DNA of 64,000 nt from Myxococcales bacterium (GTDB lineage Bacteria; Myxococcota_A; Polyangia; Polyangiales; Polyangiaceae). The DNA lies in contig CAHJWM010000007.1 in the NCBI GenBank assembly GCA_903642325.1, positions 62,001-126,000 of the forward strand, in the 5' to 3' direction. A program made the position numbers and the translations under genes. Position 1 is the stretch's first letter, and every line of letters begins with the position of its first letter. Positions 40,444 to 52,441 of the stretch are shown here, piece after piece. The notes under the pieces were generated by a model. It was not told the DNA's origin, made no database searches, and was given only the letters and a program-made list of their open reading frames with translations.

Positions 40444-43400
40444 TCAGCTATCGACCGAGACACGCAGCCGGTGCCTGATCTCGAAGTATTCCGAGCTCAC
40501 AGCGAACAGCGCGAGCTCCTTGAACCGTTCGTCTGGACTGACCGCGCTCGAGCTCTCGTCGGATGCCTTGACGACTTGAATCGACGTCTCGAGGTCATGA
40601 GACAGCACGAAACCTGCCCGATCCGCGGTCATATCGACGGCCGCGACCCACCTTTTCAGGTCGAGCGCGGCGCCCGAGGTCAATAGCTTCGCGACCACGG
40701 TGGTCAATTGGTCACGCATTTGCCCAACCAAACCCACTTCGAGCGCTTGGTAGGCCTCGTTCACCGCTCCTTCCAGCTCCGGTGACACCGGGAATTGCGG
40801 TGAAGTGAGCTTGATAGCGGCAAAAAACCAGGATCTGAGTGCGGTGCCCGAGCCCAACAGATGGCGCAGATAGAGCCCTGGCCTGAAAAAAGTCAGCTGA
40901 CGCCCAGCTATGAATGCCGCCGGCTGTAACGGTACATCGGGTCTCAGCGCCGTTCTACCCAAGATGAGCGACGGCTGACTCGCAAACAAGAAGGAAATGC
41001 CGCCTGGGTCATTCGGGTTCTCGTACGCTGGCGGCACGGCGGTGCCGAGCACGCCCGCGGCATAATAGAGACTCTGACACACCGGCGCGGTGTGGCTCGC
41101 CACGTCCAGCGCATAGCTCGGATCGTAGCCGAGCTCCTGAATCGTCTGACTGCGCCGCGCGACGACGACGGGTTCGATCAGCGCAAACACGCTGGTGAGC
41201 AGCGTGTCGGCTTCTGCATGCATCAATAGGTCGAGCCAATCGTCTTCGGATAGCGCGGCCTGCGCGGGGGCGGCGGTGTCGGAACGCATGCGCTTGTAAA
41301 ACCGCTCTTCATCCGGCTCGGCCAGGTTCAACACCGTCAGGGCTTGGCATAAGCACCAGGAGGCGTCGGCACGTTTGGTTTCCGTGTACAGGCGCCGAAG
41401 CGTCTTGTACGAGTCCTGTCGATAGGGATTCTGGCGGAGGAGGATCGCCTGAGCCGCGATGGCCTTGTCTAGATAACGACCGGGATCGGTAACGTATAGG
41501 TTGCTCAAGTGCTCGGTGCGTTCCCGGTTGTCTGGCTCGAGGGTCTCCGCTGCCTCCAGTGCATCGATGGCTAGATCGATCTGGCCCATGTCGAGCTCGT
41601 AGAGCTCGGCGAGCGCGCTGAAGCTTTGCAACATGCCCGGTTGATCGTCGGACTCGCTCGCGAGCGCGAGCTTCTGTTTCAGTAGGCGTTCGACGCCCGA
41701 GTGATTGGCTCGCGCCCGCTCGAGCTCGACGGCCTCGTTCAGAGCCTTATCGAAGCCCGGCTCGAGCGCGAGCACCTGCTCGTAAAAGTCCAGGGCTCGC
41801 GCTGGATCGCCGATTTGCCGGGCGGTGACGATCGCCGCGGTATGCAGGTACTTGACCTTCTGCTTCGGGTCATCGACGAAGTCAGCAAGGCGCAGCACGA
41901 CATCGACCAGCTTGTTCCAATCTTTGTCCTCCCCGTAAAGCTGCATCAGTTTCGTCAACAAACGGCGGTTGTTGGGGCGTTCGTCGAGGGCGGCCACGAA
42001 GCTTTTCGTCGCTTGGGCCCGGTCGTTCAACTTGCCGGAAGCAATATCGCCCACGTCAATCAAGAGTTGAATGCGCTCATCACCGCCGGCAATATCCAGA
42101 TGGCGAGTCTTGATTTTGCTGCATTCCAACCAGTTTTCCTGCGCCTCATACACGCGCGCGAGGGCCACGAGGGGCTCGGGGGCTCTGGGATCCAAATCCG
42201 CCGCCTCCTTCAAAGGCGCGAGGCTGCCTTCTAGATCGCCGGCTCTTCGCCGCGCTTCGCCGTAGCGATACGCGGCTTTGGCTCGGCCTTCGCTAGGCAT
42301 GGCCGCGCCGAAGCGAGACAAGAGGTCGTGATACAGCTCGCCCGCGCGTTTCGGCGAGCCATGCTCGAAAGTGACGAGCGCCACCCGAGCCAGTGCGTCC
42401 GAGTCGTCGGGCGCGATGCGCAACAAGGTGTCCATGGGCAGCAACGCTTTTTCGGTCGAGCCCGTTTGGCTCAGCGCATCGACATACCGGACGAGGAGCC
42501 GCGCGGCGGCCGTCTTTTCGAGTGACTCGGCGCGGCCGGCGACGAGCTCGTAGTACGTGGCCGCCTCCATGAAGCGTTTGGCGTCGAATGCGATGTCTCC
42601 AAGGACGGTCAGGGCGTCGAGATTTGCGGCATCGAGTGCCAGCGCCCGCTTGGCCGCTTCTTCCGCGCGCTTGTCGTCCTTGAGTCTTTCTCGCGCAAAA
42701 CTCGCGATCTGTCCCGTGAGCCGCGCCTTTGCGACAACTCCCACCGTGTGCAAGAGCTCCTGCTCGAGTATGTGAACGGCTGCACTCAGATCCCCGCTCG
42801 CGGTGTACGCTTCACGTAGCGCTACCGCGGACGTCGAATCCTTCGGGTTTGCGTCGAAGGCGCGCTTGTAGCGCTCGATAGCGCCGTCACGGTCCCCGCG
42901 CGCCTCGAGCACCTTGGCCGCGCGAATGTAGTGTTCGGCCTTTGCCTCGGCAGTCGGGGCCCGGTTGGCTAACGCGTCCAGCGCCGACAGCGCGGCGTCG
43001 GCATCACCGGCCGCCTCCCGCAGGCGTGCCAAAGCCTCCAAGGCCCCAGGGTGGTGCGGATCGATCTCGAGGACGGCCTCGTACGATTCCATCGCACGCT
43101 CGGGCGAGCCGATCTGGTCCGCAAGTAACCTGGCGCGTTGTAGGAGCAGCGCCAGCCGACGGGGGCCCTCGGTGATCTGTTTTAGTTGTTGCTCGTACAA
43201 CCTCGCGACATCCTCCCAGCGCTCCAAGCTGCGGTAGTGGCGGACCAGCGAAATGAGCGCGGCTTCCTGCGCCGGATCCAACGCGAGCACGCGCTCGAGC
43301 GCTTCAGCCGCCCGTTCGTGATCGAGAAATTCTTCCTCGTAGACCGCGGCCATGCGCTCGAAAAGGACGACTTTTTGCCTGGGTGTTGCCGCGACCTCGA

Positions 43401-45756
43401 CTTGTCGATCCAGATTTGCGAGCAGGTCCTGAAAACGCCCCTGCTTCGAGTACAATCGGTCCAGCCCGCGCAGGGCTTCCAGGCTCGAACCGTCGACGGC
43501 GAGTGCGGCTCGAAATCGCTCGATGGCTTGACCGTCGTCGTTCAGGCTCGTCTCGAACAATTCGGCGATCCGACACAAGGTTTGCTGCCGCTCTTCGCCG
43601 CGTTGCACATCCGCCCGGTACTGCAAAACCTGCAGCAGCCCACGGAAGTCGCCGGTGCGCTGGTAGATGCGGGCGAGCGCTTCGCTCGCCCTGGGCTGCG
43701 CTGGATCTTCACTCGCGATCTGTTCGTACAGCTGACGGGCACTTTCGGTGTCGTTCAGACGTAGCTCGAGGACCTCGGCGGCCTGGGCACGTAGCTCGCG
43801 CGCCTCTGCCGGCATAGCGGCGTCCGCGCGCTGGGTCAGCACTACGCCGAGCTCCGACCACTGTTGAGCCTTCTCGTAGATCTGCGTCATGGCCCGGAGC
43901 GACTGATCGTCAGCGGGGTCGCTGGCGAGCACGGCCTGAAAGCAGGGCAGTGCCAGATCGGGTCGCCGTAATTTCTCGACGTACCACTGACCGGCGCGGT
44001 TCCAGATCGCTCGTCGAATCTCGGGCGCGGCGTCCTCGTCCTGTGCGCTGGCAGCGCAATTTGCGAGCACCTCGTTCCAGGCTTGCTGACTAGTGCCGGC
44101 GAGCCGTTCGATCTCGACGCCGAGTCTCGGCTGGCTCGGATCTTCACACAGCGCCTGTGTATAGGCGACCAATGCCTGTTCGGCGTCTTTCAGCTCGGTT
44201 GCATAGAGCGTACCTATTTCCGAGAGCGCGCGTGCACGCTCCGCCGCGCTGGCGGAGTTTTCAGCGCGGGCGAGCAGCATCTCCACCACTTCCTCGAACT
44301 TGCCGAGGCGCCGACGTGAGTCCTCGAGCCCGCCCAATGCCACGTTGTCGTCGGGGTCGAGCCGCACGATTTGCTCGTACACGCTTTCGGCGCGATGCAG
44401 ATCGAAGTCGCCGGCGGCCAATAGTCGAGCGGCGCGAAACAGCAGGCTTTTCGCGGCTTCCTTTTCGGCATCGCCTGGAGGGATGAGCTCCGCGGCGCGC
44501 AGCAGGCCCTCAACCACGAGCGCTGGGTCCGCGCCCGATTCGACGCTGCTGTCGAGGGCCAGCGCCGCGTCTTCGTCGTTCGGTGTTTCCAGTAGAGCAT
44601 CGATCCTTGCATTCAGCTCGGTGCTCGAAAGGAGGAGGTTTGGTTGCGGCGGGACCGAGGGCTTGATGGCATCGAAAAGCGCGAGCACTTCGCTCGCGCT
44701 TTTTGGGCGCCGTGCCGGATCCTTGTTCAGCAGCCGCAACACGAGCTCGTCGAGCTCAGTCGGGACCCAACCGCGTGGAGCGAGGCGGCTGGGTGGCGGC
44801 GGCTCGACGCTGAGCTGCGCGACGGCAACTTCGAGGGCGGGCCGGTCGCCGAACAGCGGCTTGCCGCTCAACATCTCGTACAGCATCGCGCCAAACGAAT
44901 AGACGTCGCTCGCTGGATCTGCGGCAAGACCGCGGATCTGTTCCGGGGACGCAGTGCGCAGCGAGCCGACGGTGGCAAGTTGCTCATTGCCGCCGTCGAG
45001 CACCCGGTAGCGCAGCCGATCGAAGCCTGCGTCGACGAGCAGCACGTTCTCCGCCCCGTCGGCGGGTCGGCTGACCAGCACATTGGCGAGCCGCAAGTCC
45101 CCGTGTGCGATGCGCCGAGCGTGTAACGCGGCCAGCGGCCGTAGAATGCCCCGGATCAGGGCCCTCGCACTATCGATGTGTAAAGGGCCGCCCTGGGCCA
45201 CGCGCTCGGCCAAAGGCTCCGCCTCCACCACCGCGTGCGACACGACGACGAGATTTCCGATCCTACGAGCGCTCAGCTCGCGTGGCAGTCCAGCGTCCTC
45301 GATCGGGCTTATCAGGCGCATCGCGGTAAGAAAACGCTGCACGCCACGCTGATCCCGCATCGCCTCATAGCGCAGCACTTTGACGCGATATGCGGAGCCA
45401 CTCTGGCTGGCAAGATATGAGATACCCAGGCGGCCTTCGCCCAACTTGCGAATGATCGAGTACGGCCCTAGCTCGGCGCCCGGTTCCAGCTCCGCGTCGA
45501 GCGCGACCCCCTGGATGCCCAGCTCGGCGACTTTCGGGTTCACCTCCGTACGGGTCGCAAGCAGCGCGTCGCACAACGCCTCGATCGCGTCGCGCTCGAG
45601 GCAATGCCCGATCAGCGCACCGGCAAAAGATGCCTTGGCCGCCGCGCCGCCTACGTCTTCGGGTTCGAATCCCAAGACGTCCCGGCTCAGCTTCAGCAAA
45701 CCAGGGAGATCGTACAGTCGCTCGAGCTCCGCGCGCAGGATATCTGTGTCGGTCAT
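40444..45756 (-). CDS. Giant Ser/Thr kinase-like protein with TPR superhelix
   Basis: 1770 residues in four parts. Residues 1-75 form a compact helical domain ('LERLYDLPGLLKLSRDVLGF', 'HCLERDAIEALCDALLATR') resembling effector-associated or death-like adaptor domains; this is tentative. A protein-kinase domain covers about 97-365: Gly loop 'KLGEGRLGISYLA', Lys126, catalytic loop HGDLRLAN (Asp220, Asn225), metal-binding DAG (Asp242) and SPE (270-272). HRD is HGD, the catalytic-loop Lys is Arg and DFG is DAG, so activity is possible but uncertain. Residues ~390-1475 are degenerate TPRs with a 72-residue period. The C-terminal ~290 residues are a separate unassigned domain with 'MTADRAGFVLSHDLE'. 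No membrane segment is visible. The ATG has no obvious ribosome-binding site. Confidence 0.9.
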   Translation of the reverse strand: MTDTDILRAELERLYDLPGLLKLSRDVLGFEPEDVGGAAAKASFAGALIGHCLERDAIEALCDALLATRTEVNPKVAELGIQGVALDAELEPGAELGPYSIIRKLGEGRLGISYLASQSGSAYRVKVLRYEAMRDQRGVQRFLTAMRLISPIEDAGLPRELSARRIGNLVVVSHAVVEAEPLAERVAQGGPLHIDSARALIRGILRPLAALHARRIAHGDLRLANVLVSRPADGAENVLLVDAGFDRLRYRVLDGGNEQLATVGSLRTASPEQIRGLAADPASDVYSFGAMLYEMLSGKPLFGDRPALEVAVAQLSVEPPPPSRLAPRGWVPTELDELVLRLLNKDPARRPKSASEVLALFDAIKPSVPPQPNLLLSSTELNARIDALLETPNDEDAALALDSSVESGADPALVVEGLLRAAELIPPGDAEKEAAKSLLFRAARLLAAGDFDLHRAESVYEQIVRLDPDDNVALGGLEDSRRRLGKFEEVVEMLLARAENSASAAERARALSEIGTLYATELKDAEQALVAYTQALCEDPSQPRLGVEIERLAGTSQQAWNEVLANCAASAQDEDAAPEIRRAIWNRAGQWYVEKLRRPDLALPCFQAVLASDPADDQSLRAMTQIYEKAQQWSELGVVLTQRADAAMPAEARELRAQAAEVLELRLNDTESARQLYEQIASEDPAQPRASEALARIYQRTGDFRGLLQVLQYRADVQRGEERQQTLCRIAELFETSLNDDGQAIERFRAALAVDGSSLEALRGLDRLYSKQGRFQDLLANLDRQVEVAATPRQKVVLFERMAAVYEEEFLDHERAAEALERVLALDPAQEAALISLVRHYRSLERWEDVARLYEQQLKQITEGPRRLALLLQRARLLADQIGSPERAMESYEAVLEIDPHHPGALEALARLREAAGDADAALSALDALANRAPTAEAKAEHYIRAAKVLEARGDRDGAIERYKRAFDANPKDSTSAVALREAYTASGDLSAAVHILEQELLHTVGVVAKARLTGQIASFARERLKDDKRAEEAAKRALALDAANLDALTVLGDIAFDAKRFMEAATYYELVAGRAESLEKTAAARLLVRYVDALSQTGSTEKALLPMDTLLRIAPDDSDALARVALVTFEHGSPKRAGELYHDLLSRFGAAMPSEGRAKAAYRYGEARRRAGDLEGSLAPLKEAADLDPRAPEPLVALARVYEAQENWLECSKIKTRHLDIAGGDERIQLLIDVGDIASGKLNDRAQATKSFVAALDERPNNRRLLTKLMQLYGEDKDWNKLVDVVLRLADFVDDPKQKVKYLHTAAIVTARQIGDPARALDFYEQVLALEPGFDKALNEAVELERARANHSGVERLLKQKLALASESDDQPGMLQSFSALAELYELDMGQIDLAIDALEAAETLEPDNRERTEHLSNLYVTDPGRYLDKAIAAQAILLRQNPYRQDSYKTLRRLYTETKRADASWCLCQALTVLNLAEPDEERFYKRMRSDTAAPAQAALSEDDWLDLLMHAEADTLLTSVFALIEPVVVARRSQTIQELGYDPSYALDVASHTAPVCQSLYYAAGVLGTAVPPAYENPNDPGGISFLFASQPSLILGRTALRPDVPLQPAAFIAGRQLTFFRPGLYLRHLLGSGTALRSWFFAAIKLTSPQFPVSPELEGAVNEAYQALEVGLVGQMRDQLTTVVAKLLTSGAALDLKRWVAAVDMTADRAGFVLSHDLETSIQVVKASDESSSAVSPDERFKELALFAVSSEYFEIRHRLRVSVDS

Positions 45757-46720: not shown

Positions 46721-47398
46721 TCAAGGAAAGCGGGCTTGCACGCCACCCTGCAGCTCGAGCTCGCTGTGAATCGAGCGCAGAACTCCAGTAGTGAGGCCGG
46801 CGTCAACGAAAACACCGACATATTTTGCAAAGTCGAACTGAGCTCCGGCCGCCAGGTGAATCAGCAGGTCATTTTTATACGCGGGGCGGTTTCGCCGATA
46901 GTCCGCGGCGCTCCCGCCGTGCTCGAGCTCCCATGCCAATGCCGGCTCGACGAAGATTTTGAGCCTCGAATCGCTCATCGTGTAAATGCGTGCGCCCGCG
47001 CCGACCACTTTCAGCGGCAGGGTATCGGTCTCGACCTCTCGAGCGAGTCCGAGCCTAAGGAACAGGTAGGGCTCGACGAAGTCGAGCGGCGCGAAGCTCA
47101 ACGCGAGATCCATAGCCAAGGGCGCGCCATGGCCACAGAACTTCTGCTGATCTTTCCCTGCTTTGTCCGCCTTGTATGCCGCACACAGGGGCGACTGATC
47201 ATAGCGGAGGATCATGTTGTAGCCGCCGACCAAGCCAGCGCGCAGACCGAACTGCAGGCCATGCCCGAAATAGTCGGCATGTTCGGTGCGGACGCCTGGT
47301 TCGGCACGAGGCGGGCGGGTGGCGGGTTCGTCGCCGAGCGCTGGTACTACGAAGGAGATCGATAGACCGAGGACCGCCCAGGTAAATCGCGCTTCCAA
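46721..47398 (-). CDS. Predicted outer-membrane beta-barrel protein
   Basis: 225 residues from a TTG start with a GGGG stretch a few bases upstream. A signal peptide with cleavage near 'VVPALGDE' (about residue 22) leads to a protein of alternating hydrophobic strands, for example 'LQFGLRAGLVGGYNMILRYD', 'YLFLRLGLAREVETDTL', 'LIHLAAGAQFDFAKYVGVFV' and 'LELQGGVQARFP' at the C-terminus. This is the pattern of a small eight-strand outer-membrane barrel. A cysteine pair (Cys72 and Cys88 region) may form a loop disulfide. No family is recognised and the function is unknown. It starts 60 bases after the aconitase-fold gene stops and is probably in the same transcript. Confidence 0.7.
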   Translation of the reverse strand: MEARFTWAVLGLSISFVVPALGDEPATRPPRAEPGVRTEHADYFGHGLQFGLRAGLVGGYNMILRYDQSPLCAAYKADKAGKDQQKFCGHGAPLAMDLALSFAPLDFVEPYLFLRLGLAREVETDTLPLKVVGAGARIYTMSDSRLKIFVEPALAWELEHGGSAADYRRNRPAYKNDLLIHLAAGAQFDFAKYVGVFVDAGLTTGVLRSIHSELELQGGVQARFP

Positions 47399-47458
47399 GC
47401 CCCAGACCGTAAACGATCTGGCTGCACATCGCTATCGCAGCGGCAGCACGCTCGTTCG

Positions 47459-49231
47459 CTAGCGTTTAGCGCTTCGGGCGCTGCCCGCCATCGTCCAGTC
47501 GCGTTCGGCGCCGAGCGCGACCCAGGTCAAGCCGACGGGGCCTCCGCCGGTGTTCACCGTAAGTTGTTTCTGACCATTCCAGGCGCTGGCGGCTGGTAAC
47601 GCGAGCGTCGGCTCGGCGCGCAATTTGACGAGGTCGCCTGGGTCGCTCACGAGGGCCAAAATCCCGAGACCGGCAAGCATGGGCACGATGCCGCTCGGAA
47701 CATGTGACGCGATCACCGCGCGCACGGTCTCGCACAGCTCCGGGGCTCGCCTCGCTAACCAACGCACGTCGTCCAAGGACTCGAGCACCAGCACGCTCGC
47801 AGTCGTAGGCTTGCCGCGCTTCGATACGATGGGCAACGTTTGCGCGTGGTCGTACGGGTAGGCCTTTGGTACGTCGATGGCGCCCTGTTTCCCAGCCTCG
47901 GCTTCTTTGGCTTTGCTCTTCGCCTTGCGCACGATCAATACGTCGTCCGTGGGCAGGGTGCGCGGGACCGTGACGCGTACCGGTCGTTTGAACGAGCGCG
48001 GGTCGCCCACCGTCCCGGTAGCCACCGAGAATGCGAGGGTCTCGGCGGATGCGACCACGAAGCGCTGCGCGCTGACTGGGAAGCTCGGCTCCGGATCGAA
48101 CGTGCGCAGTGAAACTCCGCCGTCATTCGGCGGTGGATACAATTCACCCGTAACCAGCCGCGGGTCGGGCTCGAGCAAGCGCGCTCCGGTCGCCACCAAG
48201 TCGACGAGCGCGCCGGACTGCGCGAGCACTTCCAACGCTTGCCGGGACGGCGGAGCCACCAGCAGGTCGAGCTTCGGGGGAACTCGTTTGCTCTTAAGCA
48301 AAGCCGCGGCTGCCAGCAGGTCCCGTAATGACGCCCCCGAGTCCCCGCCGAGGATCACTTGGCTCACCGGCTTGCCCGCGATCTCCCGCACTGGTTTCAC
48401 GACGCCGTCCTCATCCAGCACCAGCGGGTCTACTGCCGACAAGTCCACGCTGATGACGTCATCGCAGGGCGCGCCCGGATCCGGCAGTAATCCGCGGTGA
48501 GCCTTCGAGCGACGTTGATCACGCAAGTAGACCTCTGTCTTCTCATCGCTCACGAACACGGCCGCCGCCGCGCCCAGCATGGGCGCAAGCGCCGCCAGCA
48601 CAGCGCGGTCTGAAACAGAGAGGAGGCGCGCGCTGGGCCCGGCAAATTCGATCACTACGGGCGCTTGGTATTCCGTGTCCACCCGAAGAATTGTTTCCGC
48701 GAGGCCGCGGCGCATCAGCTCCAACCCGACGTCCCTCACGCACACGAACGGACGCACCCGTCCCGAAAGCAAAATCTGCACGCTGCGCGGCGGGCGCAAG
48801 AGCACGTTGCCCGTTACCAACGCTTCGGCTAACTGCGAAGGCGGTACGACCAAGGTCAGCATGCCGGCACCGCCGACCGAAGCCAGGCGAGGCTCGTCCG
48901 TGAGCGCAAGGCGCGCCGGGCTCCCGAAGCGCTCGAGGTGCACGGCGGCGGGGAAGCCGATGCCGGGTCGAGCGATCAGCATGCCGAGGTTCAGTGCGTC
49001 CTTCGCACCGCGCAGGCTCAAGCCGGGCGCTACGTCCGAGAGAGCGGTGACGCAGCGCGTGTCATAGGCAATGGCCACCTCCACCGCGCACTTCTTGGCC
49101 GTTGAGAGCACCGGCTCACAGAGCGTGCGATCGGGTTCTCTCGCGAGGACGACTTGGTCGACCTTCACCCGAACGAGATCTCCGTTCAGGTTTGGATCAT
49201 CCGCGCGCCCGGCGAGGATCTTCTGGGTCAT
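47459..49231 (-). CDS. Aconitase-fold protein lacking catalytic and iron-sulfur residues
   Basis: 590 residues from ATG 49231 (open upstream to 49318). It aligns along its length with Aquifex-type monomeric aconitase: 'LARPGIGFP...VHLERFGSP', 'LSGRVRPFVCVRDVGLELMRR', 'VVKPVREIAGKPVSQVILGG', 'TGARLLEP', 'GGVSLRTF' and, in the swivel domain, 'VRAVIASHVPSGIVPMLAGL'. Key residues are gone. The DHN motif is DTR (57-59). SDSH is TDEP (111-114). The Cys of GSCTN is Asp297. The two Cys of CGPC are Pro357 and Val360. The GSSR loop is DVRW. It cannot bind a normal [4Fe-4S] cluster or catalyse hydration of aconitate. The frame is intact, so it is a pseudoenzyme, not a broken gene. Role unknown. An outer-membrane gene follows. 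Confidence 0.82.
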   Translation of the reverse strand: MTQKILAGRADDPNLNGDLVRVKVDQVVLAREPDRTLCEPVLSTAKKCAVEVAIAYDTRCVTALSDVAPGLSLRGAKDALNLGMLIARPGIGFPAAVHLERFGSPARLALTDEPRLASVGGAGMLTLVVPPSQLAEALVTGNVLLRPPRSVQILLSGRVRPFVCVRDVGLELMRRGLAETILRVDTEYQAPVVIEFAGPSARLLSVSDRAVLAALAPMLGAAAAVFVSDEKTEVYLRDQRRSKAHRGLLPDPGAPCDDVISVDLSAVDPLVLDEDGVVKPVREIAGKPVSQVILGGDSGASLRDLLAAAALLKSKRVPPKLDLLVAPPSRQALEVLAQSGALVDLVATGARLLEPDPRLVTGELYPPPNDGGVSLRTFDPEPSFPVSAQRFVVASAETLAFSVATGTVGDPRSFKRPVRVTVPRTLPTDDVLIVRKAKSKAKEAEAGKQGAIDVPKAYPYDHAQTLPIVSKRGKPTTASVLVLESLDDVRWLARRAPELCETVRAVIASHVPSGIVPMLAGLGILALVSDPGDLVKLRAEPTLALPAASAWNGQKQLTVNTGGGPVGLTWVALGAERDWTMAGSARSAKR

Positions 49232-49516
49232 GGTGCGGGGCGGATCCCCCGCTCGCGCACGCATCGGAGTGCTCGGAAAGTAGCCGCTCGGCCCGAGCAG
49301 GGTCAAGGACCGCGGCACGGCGCACGGCCGTTACGGCGATTCGCCCGGCTTTAGCGCGGCCGCAAGTACTGCCGGCCGGCGGGTGAGGCGCCGGCTTCGC
49401 GAGGAGCGTGGTTCGGCCCGATGGCCTGTAAGATTTGCTTAATGTTTTCGCGCTGCGAGGCGGAGGCTGCACTTCGAAAATTCACTTGCGAGGGCAATCC
49501 GGGCTAACCTGACCCC

Positions 49517-49879
49517 ATGTTCAAAGAGGCGTTGCAGAGCGTCGTAGAAGGCACGGACGGCGGCATCGCGGGGCTGCTCATGGACTTCGAAGGCATCCCA
49601 CTGGAAAGCTACACCAAGGCCGACGCGGCGATCGACATCGAGACGGTCGGCGCCGAAGTCAGCGTCGTCGTGAAGGGCATCCAGCGCGCCACCGAGATGC
49701 TCGACGCGGGCGAAACCAGTGAAGTGTCGTTCAAGAGTGACAAGATGATCACACTGATCCGCATCGTCACAAAAGGCTATTTCGTCGCTCTCACGCTCTC
49801 GCCCGACGCCAACTTAGGCAAAGGGCGCTATCTGCTGCGCCTCCTCGCGCCCAAGCTGGCCGAGGAGCTCGCGGCCTGA
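49517..49879 (+). CDS. Roadblock/LC7-domain protein (MglB-like)
   Basis: 120 residues with the Roadblock/LC7 fold: 'MFKEALQSVVEGTDGGIAGL' (helix and strand), 'LMDFEGIPLESY', then 'EVSVVVKGIQRATEMLDAGE' and the strand 'ITLIRIVTKGYFVALTLSPD'. The family includes MglB, the GTPase-activating protein for the polarity GTPase MglA in Myxococcus. No MglA gene is adjacent, so the partner is not known. It is a cytosolic homodimer in known cases. The stop is 1 base before the aroQ GTG, which implies tight coupling with a metabolic gene. Confidence 0.85.
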   Translation: MFKEALQSVVEGTDGGIAGLLMDFEGIPLESYTKADAAIDIETVGAEVSVVVKGIQRATEMLDAGETSEVSFKSDKMITLIRIVTKGYFVALTLSPDANLGKGRYLLRLLAPKLAEELAA

Positions 49880-49880
49880 A

Positions 49881-50402
49881 GTGGCGGACGCGAAACGAAA
49901 GCCGCGGGGGGGCACCCTGTCCGTCGTTCCCGACGCGCCAAAAATTCGGGCACGCAGCGCCGTGCGTGTGCTGGTCGTGAGCGGACCAAATCTCGATCGG
50001 CTCGGCAAGCGCGAGCCGGAAGTTTACGGCTCGGTAACGCTCGGCCAGATCCACGAGTTGCTCGGCGCGGCCTCGACGTTGCGTAAAGCCGTAGTGGAGT
50101 GTCGGCAGAGCAATCACGAAGGCGCGCTGATCGATTGGGTCGGGTCGGCGAGCGACGATGGCTTCTCCGGTATCTTACTGAATCCCGGGGCGCTGACTCA
50201 CTACTCGTACGCGCTCTACGACGCGATCAAGGGTTCGAGCATACCGGTGGTGGAGGTCCATCTTTCGAATCCGGACGCGCGCGAGGCCTTTCGAAAAGAA
50301 TCGGTGATCGCCCCAGCCTGCGTCGGCACCGTCGCTGGCTTCGGCGCCGCCTCCTACACGTTGGCTCTGACCGGCCTCCTCGACCGCTTGCAACCGAGCT
50401 AA
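49881..50402 (+). CDS. aroQ: Type II 3-dehydroquinate dehydratase (AroQ)
   Basis: 173 residues from GTG 49881. AroQ dehydrates 3-dehydroquinate to 3-dehydroshikimate in the shikimate pathway as a dodecamer. The family features are 'VSGPNLDRLGKREPEVYG' with the catalytic Tyr, 'RQSNHEGALIDWVG', 'LNPGALTHYSYALYDAI' with the catalytic His, 'VEVHLSNPDAREAFRKESVI' and 'GTVAGFGAASYTLAL'. A basic N-terminal extension of about 27 residues is unusual; most AroQ proteins are about 145 residues. Order aroQ-accB-accC is common in bacteria, which supports the call. Confidence 0.95.
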   Translation: MADAKRKPRGGTLSVVPDAPKIRARSAVRVLVVSGPNLDRLGKREPEVYGSVTLGQIHELLGAASTLRKAVVECRQSNHEGALIDWVGSASDDGFSGILLNPGALTHYSYALYDAIKGSSIPVVEVHLSNPDAREAFRKESVIAPACVGTVAGFGAASYTLALTGLLDRLQPS

Positions 50403-50563
50403 ATCCCGGCTCGTGGTCGTGGGCGATGTCGCGGCGGGTCGGAGGCGCGCAAGCTCGTTCGCAGTTGTCCGCCGGGCGCGCCCGCCATACGAGTTGCGAC
50501 ATGCGATTCGTGTGCGCTAACTTGCCGCTCCCTCGAGCGCCCCGATGCGATTCGGAACGCGCC

Positions 50564-50586
50564 AGGGCCCGTTTCGGCGGGGCCCT
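50564..50586 (+). promoter_or_regulatory. GC-rich hairpin in the accB leader
   Basis: AGGGCCC (50564-50570) and GGGCCCT (50580-50586) form a perfect seven-base stem with a 9-base loop. It ends 24 bases before the accB ATG. A T run (TTTTT) occurs about 15 bases later, too far for a classical terminator. The element lies in the 208-base gap between aroQ and accB, where a promoter or leader control of fatty-acid synthesis is expected. Its role is unproven. Confidence 0.35.
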
Positions 50587-50610
50587 CTCTGCACAGGAAC
50601 TTTTTGCACC

Positions 50611-51069
50611 ATGCAGCTTCCGCTTGATGAGCTTCAAAGTCTGCTGAAAACGCTCGATGAGGGCGGCGCGTCAGAGTTCGAGTACGAAGACGAAAAGATT
50701 CGCTTGAAAGTCGCGATGGTACGCGGCCAGGCTTCCGCTTCGAATTCATCCGGAGGCTCGCCGTCTTCGACAGTTGCCGCCATGCCTGCGGTCTTCGCTG
50801 CGCCCGCCGCAGTAGCGGCGGACCCGAACGTGGTGTTCGTGACCTCGCCGTTTGTCGGGACTTTCTACCGCGCACCGTCGCCCGAGGCGGAAGACTTCGT
50901 GCCCGTGAACGGCTCGGTCAAGCAGGGTCAAACCCTGTGCATCATCGAAGCCATGAAACTGATGAACGAAATCGAGGCCGAATTCTCGGGCATCGTGCTC
51001 GAGGTGCTCGTAGAGAGCGGCAAGAGCGTCGAGTTCGGGCAGAAGCTATTCAAGATCAAGAAAAGCTGA
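50611..51069 (+). CDS. accB: Biotin carboxyl carrier protein of acetyl-CoA carboxylase
   Basis: 152 residues from ATG 50611; 22 extra upstream codons are open but read as noncoding. AccB carries the biotin that is carboxylated by AccC and then donates CO2 to acetyl-CoA, the first step of fatty-acid synthesis. The N-terminal helix '[17 protein letters not shown]' is typical. An Ala/Pro linker follows. The biotinyl domain (about 73-152) has '[22 protein letters not shown]' and the biotinylation motif 'EAMKLMNEI' with Lys116. accC starts 16 bases downstream. Biotin for this enzyme would come from the pathway that includes BioA. Confidence 0.95.
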
Positions 51070-51085
51070 GAAGCGCGACGCCACG

Positions 51086-52441
51086 ATGTTCAGAAAAGTC
51101 TTGATCGCCAATCGCGGTGAGATCGCGATCCGCGTAATTCGCGCCTGTCGAGAGCTCGGCATAGCGACCGTAGCCGTTCACTCCGAGGCGGACGCGCACG
51201 CGCTCCACGTGCGCTTTGCAGACGAAGCGGTGTGCATTGGCCCACCGGCGGCGTCGCTCAGCTACCTCAATATTCCGGCCATCATCAGCGCCGCCGAGAT
51301 CACGGCGGCGGACGCCATTCATCCCGGGTACGGCTTTCTGTCCGAAAGCACCAAGTTCGCACAGGTCGTCGAACAGTGCGGGCTGAACTTCATCGGTCCA
51401 TCGTCCGAGTCCATGTCTCAATGGGGAGACAAGCTGCGCGCGCGCGACGCAGCCATGAGATTCGGATTGCCGCTTTTGCCCGGCAGCACGGCGTTGACCA
51501 GCTTCGAGCACGCCGAATCCGAGGCCAAACGCGTCGGTTACCCCGTGATGATCAAAGCGCGCGGGGGCGGGGGAGGCCGCGGCATGCGCGTCGTGCGATC
51601 TCAGGCGGAGGTCCGCCGGGCCTTCGAGTCGGCCACGGCCGAGGCCATGAACGCGTTCAAAAATCCAGAGCTGTACCTCGAGCGCTTCGTGGAACGCCCG
51701 CGGCACATCGAGTTTCAAGCGCTCGCCGACAAACACGGCGGGGTGTGGACGTTGGGCGAGCGTGAATGCTCGCTGCAGCGCAAAAATCAGAAGCTCGTCG
51801 AAGAGTCGCCCAGCCCCAACATGGACGACGACCTCCGCGCGACGATGAGCGAGGTGATTCGCAAAGCAATCCGGGAGACCGGCTACACCTCGCTCGGCAC
51901 GCTCGAATTTCTGATGGACGAGGACAAATCCTTGTATTTCATGGAAATGAACACGCGCGTTCAGGTCGAGCACCCGGTGACGGAAATGGTGACCGGCGTC
52001 GACTTGGTGGTCGAGCAAATACGCGCCGCCGCCGGCGAGAAACTGACGCTGCCCGACACCAGTCTGTGGAGATTGCGTGGCCATGCCATCGAGTGCCGGA
52101 TCATGGCTGAAGACCCGCGTACGTTCGCGCCCTGGCCTGGGAAGATCCTGGAATATCATCCACCCGGCGGAGCGGGAGTCCGCGTCGATTCGGGTGTGTT
52201 CGGCGGTTGGACCGTGCCCCCGCATTACGATTCGTTACTCGCCAAAGTCATCGTGCACGCGCCGACGCGCGAACAAGCATTGACGCGAATGCTGCGCGCC
52301 CTCGACGAGTACATAATCAGTGGCATTCGTACCAACATCGACCTTCACAAGCAGCTGCTCCGCTTGCCCGAAGTGATGGAAGGCAGGATGACTACTCGCA
52401 CCGTCGAAGAATTCATGGCATCGCGCGCCAACGCCAATTGA
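51086..52441 (+). CDS. accC: Biotin carboxylase subunit of acetyl-CoA carboxylase
   Basis: 451 residues, the normal length. The N-terminal 'MFRKVLIANRGEIAIRVIRA' and 'HPGYGFLSES' are diagnostic. The ATP-grasp domain has 'VMIKARGGGGGRGMRVV' and 'LYLERFVERPRHIEFQALAD', and the C-terminal region has 'FMEMNTRVQVEHPVTEMVTG'. It uses ATP and bicarbonate to carboxylate biotin on AccB. It forms an operon with accB. The carboxyltransferase genes accA and accD are not in the window. Confidence 0.97.
   Translation: MFRKVLIANRGEIAIRVIRACRELGIATVAVHSEADAHALHVRFADEAVCIGPPAASLSYLNIPAIISAAEITAADAIHPGYGFLSESTKFAQVVEQCGLNFIGPSSESMSQWGDKLRARDAAMRFGLPLLPGSTALTSFEHAESEAKRVGYPVMIKARGGGGGRGMRVVRSQAEVRRAFESATAEAMNAFKNPELYLERFVERPRHIEFQALADKHGGVWTLGERECSLQRKNQKLVEESPSPNMDDDLRATMSEVIRKAIRETGYTSLGTLEFLMDEDKSLYFMEMNTRVQVEHPVTEMVTGVDLVVEQIRAAAGEKLTLPDTSLWRLRGHAIECRIMAEDPRTFAPWPGKILEYHPPGGAGVRVDSGVFGGWTVPPHYDSLLAKVIVHAPTREQALTRMLRALDEYIISGIRTNIDLHKQLLRLPEVMEGRMTTRTVEEFMASRANAN

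Follow-up and report, generated by a model that had tools for sequence, protein, structure and literature searches.

A cluster-less aconitase homologue fixed in one lineage of Myxococcota, probably a non-enzymatic binding protein

What is an aconitase homologue for once it has lost the residues that held its iron-sulfur cluster? The gene that raises this question lies on the minus strand of a 64,000-nucleotide stretch of DNA from a Myxococcales bacterium, which we call the window (features in Table 1). The original prediction, made from the sequence by itself, was that the aconitase fold had been repurposed as something other than an enzyme, with a possible link to a neighbouring outer-membrane gene. 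We believe the first half of that proposal stands and the second does not. A complete fold, the loss of the site across a whole family of orthologues, purifying selection and a separate AcnA all argue that this is probably a lineage-fixed pseudoenzyme, its aconitase fold kept as a non-enzymatic binding protein.

The gene and its fold

The minus strand of 47459-49231 holds one open frame of 590 aa, while the plus-strand translation of the same segment has many stops throughout. This frame had been taken as the whole gene, at about 590 residues. It is indeed uninterrupted, but the start belongs 11 codons further upstream, at 49264 and not 49231. An in-frame ATG 33 bases upstream, opening the protein with MRARAGDPPRT-MTQK, is common to all 65 orthologue loci that we compared for the start and the promoter. 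Because this ATG and its 11 codons are conserved in every one of them, the gene most likely begins there and encodes 601 aa. Residue numbers in this work nevertheless follow the earlier 590-aa numbering and not the 601-aa frame, and residue counts refer to 61 full-length orthologues. The sequence upstream of the ATG diverges between loci; MRARAGDPPRT itself is near-identical, and the differences between genera fall almost all at third codon positions and are mainly synonymous.

Table 1. Positions in the window of the pseudo-aconitase gene, its parts and its neighbours
Feature	Coordinates	Strand	Remarks
Pseudo-aconitase gene	47459..49264	minus	601 aa, most likely start; open frame and conserved upstream ATG
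N-terminal segment MRARAGDPPRT	49232..49264	minus	nearly invariant; synonymous constraint; block mean pLDDT 64
Sigma-70-like promoter TTGACC-N18-TACTTT (predicted)	49277..49306	minus	motif conserved in orthologue loci
T-D-[DE]-P-R replacing SDSH	48887..48901	minus	D112 in 61/61; R or K at 115 in 61/61
LRDQRRSKAHR, residues 236-246	48494..48526	minus	mean conservation 0.999; pLDDT under 50
Asp297 in place of first cluster cysteine	48341..48343	minus	invariant, 61/61
E-P-D-x-R (354-358), loop formerly with second cluster cysteine	48158..48172	minus	family alignment
GDPRxFKRPVRVTVPR (409-424), second conserved basic stretch	47960..48007	minus	conservation profile
Swivel domain, residues 460-590	47462..47854	minus	retains the fold without the catalytic loop; constraint relaxed
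Roadblock/LC7-like gene	49517..49879	plus	divergent neighbour; heads roadblock-aroQ-accB-accC; sub-threshold Pfam Robl_LC7, E 0.007
Outer-membrane beta-barrel-like gene	46721..47398	minus	downstream, lineage-limited neighbour

The gene has a conserved promoter motif of its own. The motif TTGACC-N18-TAnnnT stands ahead of it in 60 of the 65 loci, where 0.3 would be expected from shuffled sequence, and in several genera about 9 bases separate the -10 box from the conserved ATG. The promoter lies very near the start codon in the window and in several Labilithrix-like genomes (L072, L079, L088, L098, L109), and transcripts there should be nearly leaderless.

The first 11 codons are constrained at the nucleotide level beyond what the protein sequence asks for. 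Where codon 4 encodes arginine, 85% of the sequences use CGA, against a background of 9%, in genes whose GC3 is 0.85. GGG at codon 6 and CCC at codon 9 are likewise favoured, and when 190 conserved columns are ranked by bias, codons 4, 9, 6, 3, 10 and 7 all fall in the top ten. In none of 59 genomes does this coding pattern appear more than once, and where present it lies at the pseudo-aconitase gene; no second copy of the 5' element free of mismatches was found elsewhere in the window's genome. A conserved RNA hairpin is not supported: the first 33 bases can fold, but 14 of 65 sequences break one pair with no compensating change, fold z-scores are mostly weak, and no supporting covariation was detected among the 65. 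Nor is there an Rfam match above threshold in window positions 47000-50000.

That the protein belongs to the aconitase superfamily is clear from homology and predicted fold together. Pfam Aconitase (PF00330) matches with E 1.4e-22 and 80.8 bits against a cut-off of 28.7, and all 65 family members match it at E < 0.01. The best subfamily models are NCBIfam TIGR01342 (7e-56) and PRK07229 (2e-53), but the scores, 189.7 against a curated cut-off of 719.15 and 181.8 against 612, are under a third of the equivalog cut-offs, and the protein is a member of neither. Among solved structures the best sequence matches are the large subunits of Methanocaldococcus IPM isomerase and homoaconitase, and mitochondrial aconitase. 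An AlphaFold2 model built with the 65 family sequences (pLDDT 88, pTM 0.89) matches mitochondrial aconitase with Z about 36.5, at 2.9-3.0 Å over 545-550 residues, and the IPM isomerase large subunit with Z 41; its C-terminal swivel domain matches LeuD with Z 8.7-9.8. A different predicted fold would have undone the claim of a full-length aconitase homologue, swivel domain included. What was obtained is the complete four-domain fold, with the swivel as domain 4.

The same genome encodes an intact AcnA and LeuC separately, so a second, intact aconitase, which the original prediction had proposed to look for, is there. A third aconitase/IPM isomerase homologue in this genome (L003, G000:C29:34968-36212) is divergent, keeps its cysteines and has a long extension in a 700-aa frame.

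The former active site

The three cluster-cysteine positions are occupied by Asp297, Pro357 and Val360, just as predicted, and the family alignment bears this out. Asp297 is found in all 61 full-length orthologues; the other two positions vary and are never cysteine. None of the 61 has any of the three cysteines that mark an aconitase or IPM isomerase enzyme, and the catalytic DH, SDSH, NR..R and GSSR motifs that would also mark one are not conserved. The loss of the SCTN and CGPC cysteines is thus shared by the family and is not the isolated decay of one copy. Twenty related enzymes share 189 invariant columns; the pseudo-aconitases have lost 112 of these, and the 57 that they keep include many glycines and other structural residues.

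There are exceptions, and the statement that the main active-site motifs are all gone holds for most of them only. The position of Asp165, within SDSH, is acidic in all 61 (E113 in the window protein), and the arginine of GSSR is matched by R494, although only 13 of the 61 have arginine there. Five have histidine at the His101 position and three have arginine at the R452 position. The motif pairings proposed earlier had the losses right but were shifted by one to three residues; the family alignment instead pairs DHN with T58-R59-C60, SDSH with D112-E113-P114-R115 and GSSR with W491-L492-A493-R494. Orthologues in general replace SDSH with D-[DE]-P-R.

Could the cluster simply have moved? Aconitase X keeps conserved, relocated cluster cysteines, and we find nothing of the kind here. 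No cysteine is invariant among the 61 orthologues, and even the three commonest are not all present in 20 of them, which makes a relocated three-cysteine Fe-S cluster unlikely.

A separate set of Myxococcota homologues of the Aquifex-type aconitase (L039-L041, L170-L172, L175-L179, L181) has GSSAN in place of GSCTN. In these the first cluster cysteine is a serine, while the other two cysteines and the DSH of SDSH are kept, as are GSSR and DHN wherever they could be read (DHN is unread in L179).

The strongest rival to a non-enzymatic role is that the pocket has been rebuilt (D112, D/E113, R115, D297, E354, D356, R358) for another metal or for cluster-free carboxylate chemistry. New residues at former active-site positions are indeed invariant or almost invariant among the orthologues, and aconitase X is a precedent for the same fold with different active residues (PMC8184944). 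The invariant D112, R115, D297, E354 and D356, all at or beside such positions, would be explained just as well by a new catalytic or metal site. However, the catalytic serine of aconitases, Ser642, belongs to the swivel domain (PMC8184944), which also shuts the pocket; here that domain is the least constrained part of the protein and unusually relaxed, its active loop not conserved. At core identities of 0.65-0.75, swivel identity averages 0.55 in related enzymes versus 0.37 in the pseudo-aconitases, and between relatives dN/dS reaches 0.46 in the swivel, against 0.018-0.173 in the core. Relaxation of the domain that holds the catalytic serine fits a loss of catalysis. Part of the deepest conservation, moreover, lies in poorly modelled basic segments. 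We therefore regard a new enzyme as unlikely.

Within the 590-aa frame no 11-residue segment is better conserved than LRDQRRSKAHR; the basic stretch GDPRxFKRPVRVTVPR comes next. AlphaFold2 confidence is low for the LRDQRRSKAHR loop, for MRARAGDPPRT and for the linker at 441-460. In a conserved loop this can be a failure of the model instead of real flexibility. Segments that are strongly conserved yet apparently flexible suggest ordering upon partner binding. The core as a whole is near neutral (53 K+R, 50 D+E), so any basic patch must be local.

Distribution, neighbours and selection

Of the 60 genomes sampled from the window's family, a family of soil myxobacteria that includes Polyangium, Sorangium and Labilithrix, 51 carry an orthologue; so do all five genomes of a second family of the same order, f8, although in one of these a contig end truncates the match. 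None was detected in 32 sampled genomes of the order's other families. Orthologues with the same losses, for which the original prediction proposed a search in Myxococcota, are thus found in two families of one order. The family is well set apart: in a search of 379 genomes of the phylum, full-length and near-full-length members score above 700 bits and partial ones 305 to 845, while other homologues reach at most 251. A scan of a genome collection with two peptide patterns, which very diverged relatives outside the order may escape, found it in Polyangium, Sorangium, Minicystis, Labilithrix and many metagenome-assembled genomes. In our tree the pseudo-aconitases form one fully supported clade whose stem is about 2 changes per site long; the tree gave no resolved sister, and with such long branches the exact point of attachment is unsure. 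Because nine of the 60 family genomes show no orthologue, the gene appears dispensable, although some of the nine are incomplete assemblies.

The neighbourhood offers candidates for a partner, and the protein might be a scaffold or regulator for something encoded nearby, such as the divergent Roadblock/LC7-like protein or AccB/AccC. Of the neighbours, only the Roadblock-like gene stays beside the pseudo-aconitase in most loci, and its block with aroQ, accB and accC spans 49517-52441 on the plus strand of the window. However, this gene occurs in 91 of 97 sampled genomes of the order whether or not the pseudo-aconitase is present, the block being found in genomes that lack it, and the sequence available around the f8 pseudo-aconitases showed no Roadblock gene. 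A tight tie to it is not required, and we consider a scaffold for a nearby partner rather improbable, more so than a new enzyme.

The suggested link to the outer-membrane gene on the same strand is weak. Only about 19 of 81 loci have that gene adjacent to the pseudo-aconitase. Downstream genes vary by lineage: an outer-membrane protein, a histidine-kinase-like gene with a receiver protein, or a sulfatase (the kinase, receiver and sulfatase labels come from reading the sequence and not from a family search). Two genomes keep both the Roadblock and the outer-membrane genes with the pseudo-aconitase cleanly missing between them, and no remnant of it or of its promoter was detected there. Since the outer-membrane gene outlives the loss, and the genes in its place are lineage-specific, we see no strong functional link.

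Further along the window, at 40444-45756 on the minus strand, lies a gene for a protein of 1770 aa in which a protein kinase is joined to many TPR repeats; in 16 other loci a related protein is encoded within about 10 kb of the pseudo-aconitase gene. PADLOC gave no match that would make the pseudo-aconitase a defence-system protein.

An isolated pseudogene or frameshift is ruled out by the single open frame, the orthologues in many genomes and the purifying selection. The dN/dS analysis that the original prediction called for gives 0.041-0.220 for the whole gene across relatives. A gene decaying on its way out would suit the long stem, the relaxed swivel domain and the occasional clean losses, but dN/dS is far below unity, dozens of genera share near-invariant segments, the frame is full-length in most genomes and the promoter is conserved. 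Decay is already contradicted by this purifying selection, and we give it almost no credence.

A fold probably kept for binding, and its known relatives

We return to the non-enzymatic binding protein. The [4Fe-4S] site and the catalytic residues would have been lost once, before the two families spread, and the aconitase-fold protein would then have been retained in a binding role. Domains 1-3 may present a basic surface, and MRARAGDPPRT and the LRDQRRSKAHR loop may become ordered when an anionic partner binds. The swivel domain being the least constrained part favours such a partner over a metabolite clamp. By analogy, RNA is the likeliest type of partner and protein the next choice, since cluster-free aconitases are known RNA binders; IRP1, an aconitase, binds RNA when it is without its cluster. 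We put RNA forward only tentatively. The narrower idea, also by analogy, of a permanently cluster-free, dedicated RNA-binding regulator, an iron-independent IRP analogue possibly acting on its own message, seems unlikely to us.

The open-access literature we searched yielded no described inactive, cluster-less aconitase. The closest family by score is the Aquifex-type (PRK07229, TIGR01342) aconitate hydratase, which shares the domain order 1-2-3-linker-4 and about 30% identity in the core; it has two or three cluster cysteines and the catalytic motifs, whereas the pseudo-aconitase has lost them. Mitochondrial aconitase (1aco, 5acn) shares the complete four-domain fold at 19% identity, with catalytic motifs that are not conserved here. 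Aconitase X resembles the pseudo-aconitase in combining the fold with unrelated active-site residues, but it is an active enzyme that binds Fe-S clusters through cysteines (PMC8184944) and a weaker match to our model (Z about 15-16).

For binding, the precedents are the IRPs and E. coli AcnB. The IRPs use the aconitase fold without catalysis, and the pseudo-aconitase may be analogous in working by binding; they belong to the cytosolic aconitase branch and keep most of the aconitase active residues (PMC8184944), and RNA binding here is putative. Cluster-free apo-AcnB binds its own mRNA (PMC4150767), a precedent on which, together with IRP1 and the conserved basic segments, a putative RNA role here would rest, but AcnB switches reversibly with iron whereas the pseudo-aconitase is permanently without the canonical cluster site. 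It is important to realize that this protein, despite its Pfam "aconitase" match, is probably not an enzyme. Moonlighting RNA-binding aconitases lose a labile cluster; throughout this lineage, other residues have taken over the cluster site and most of the catalytic site, while strong selection maintains the fold. The pseudo-aconitase would thus separate the fold's non-enzymatic role from catalysis, and its orthologues in cultured Sorangium and Polyangium offer a clean subject for studying it.
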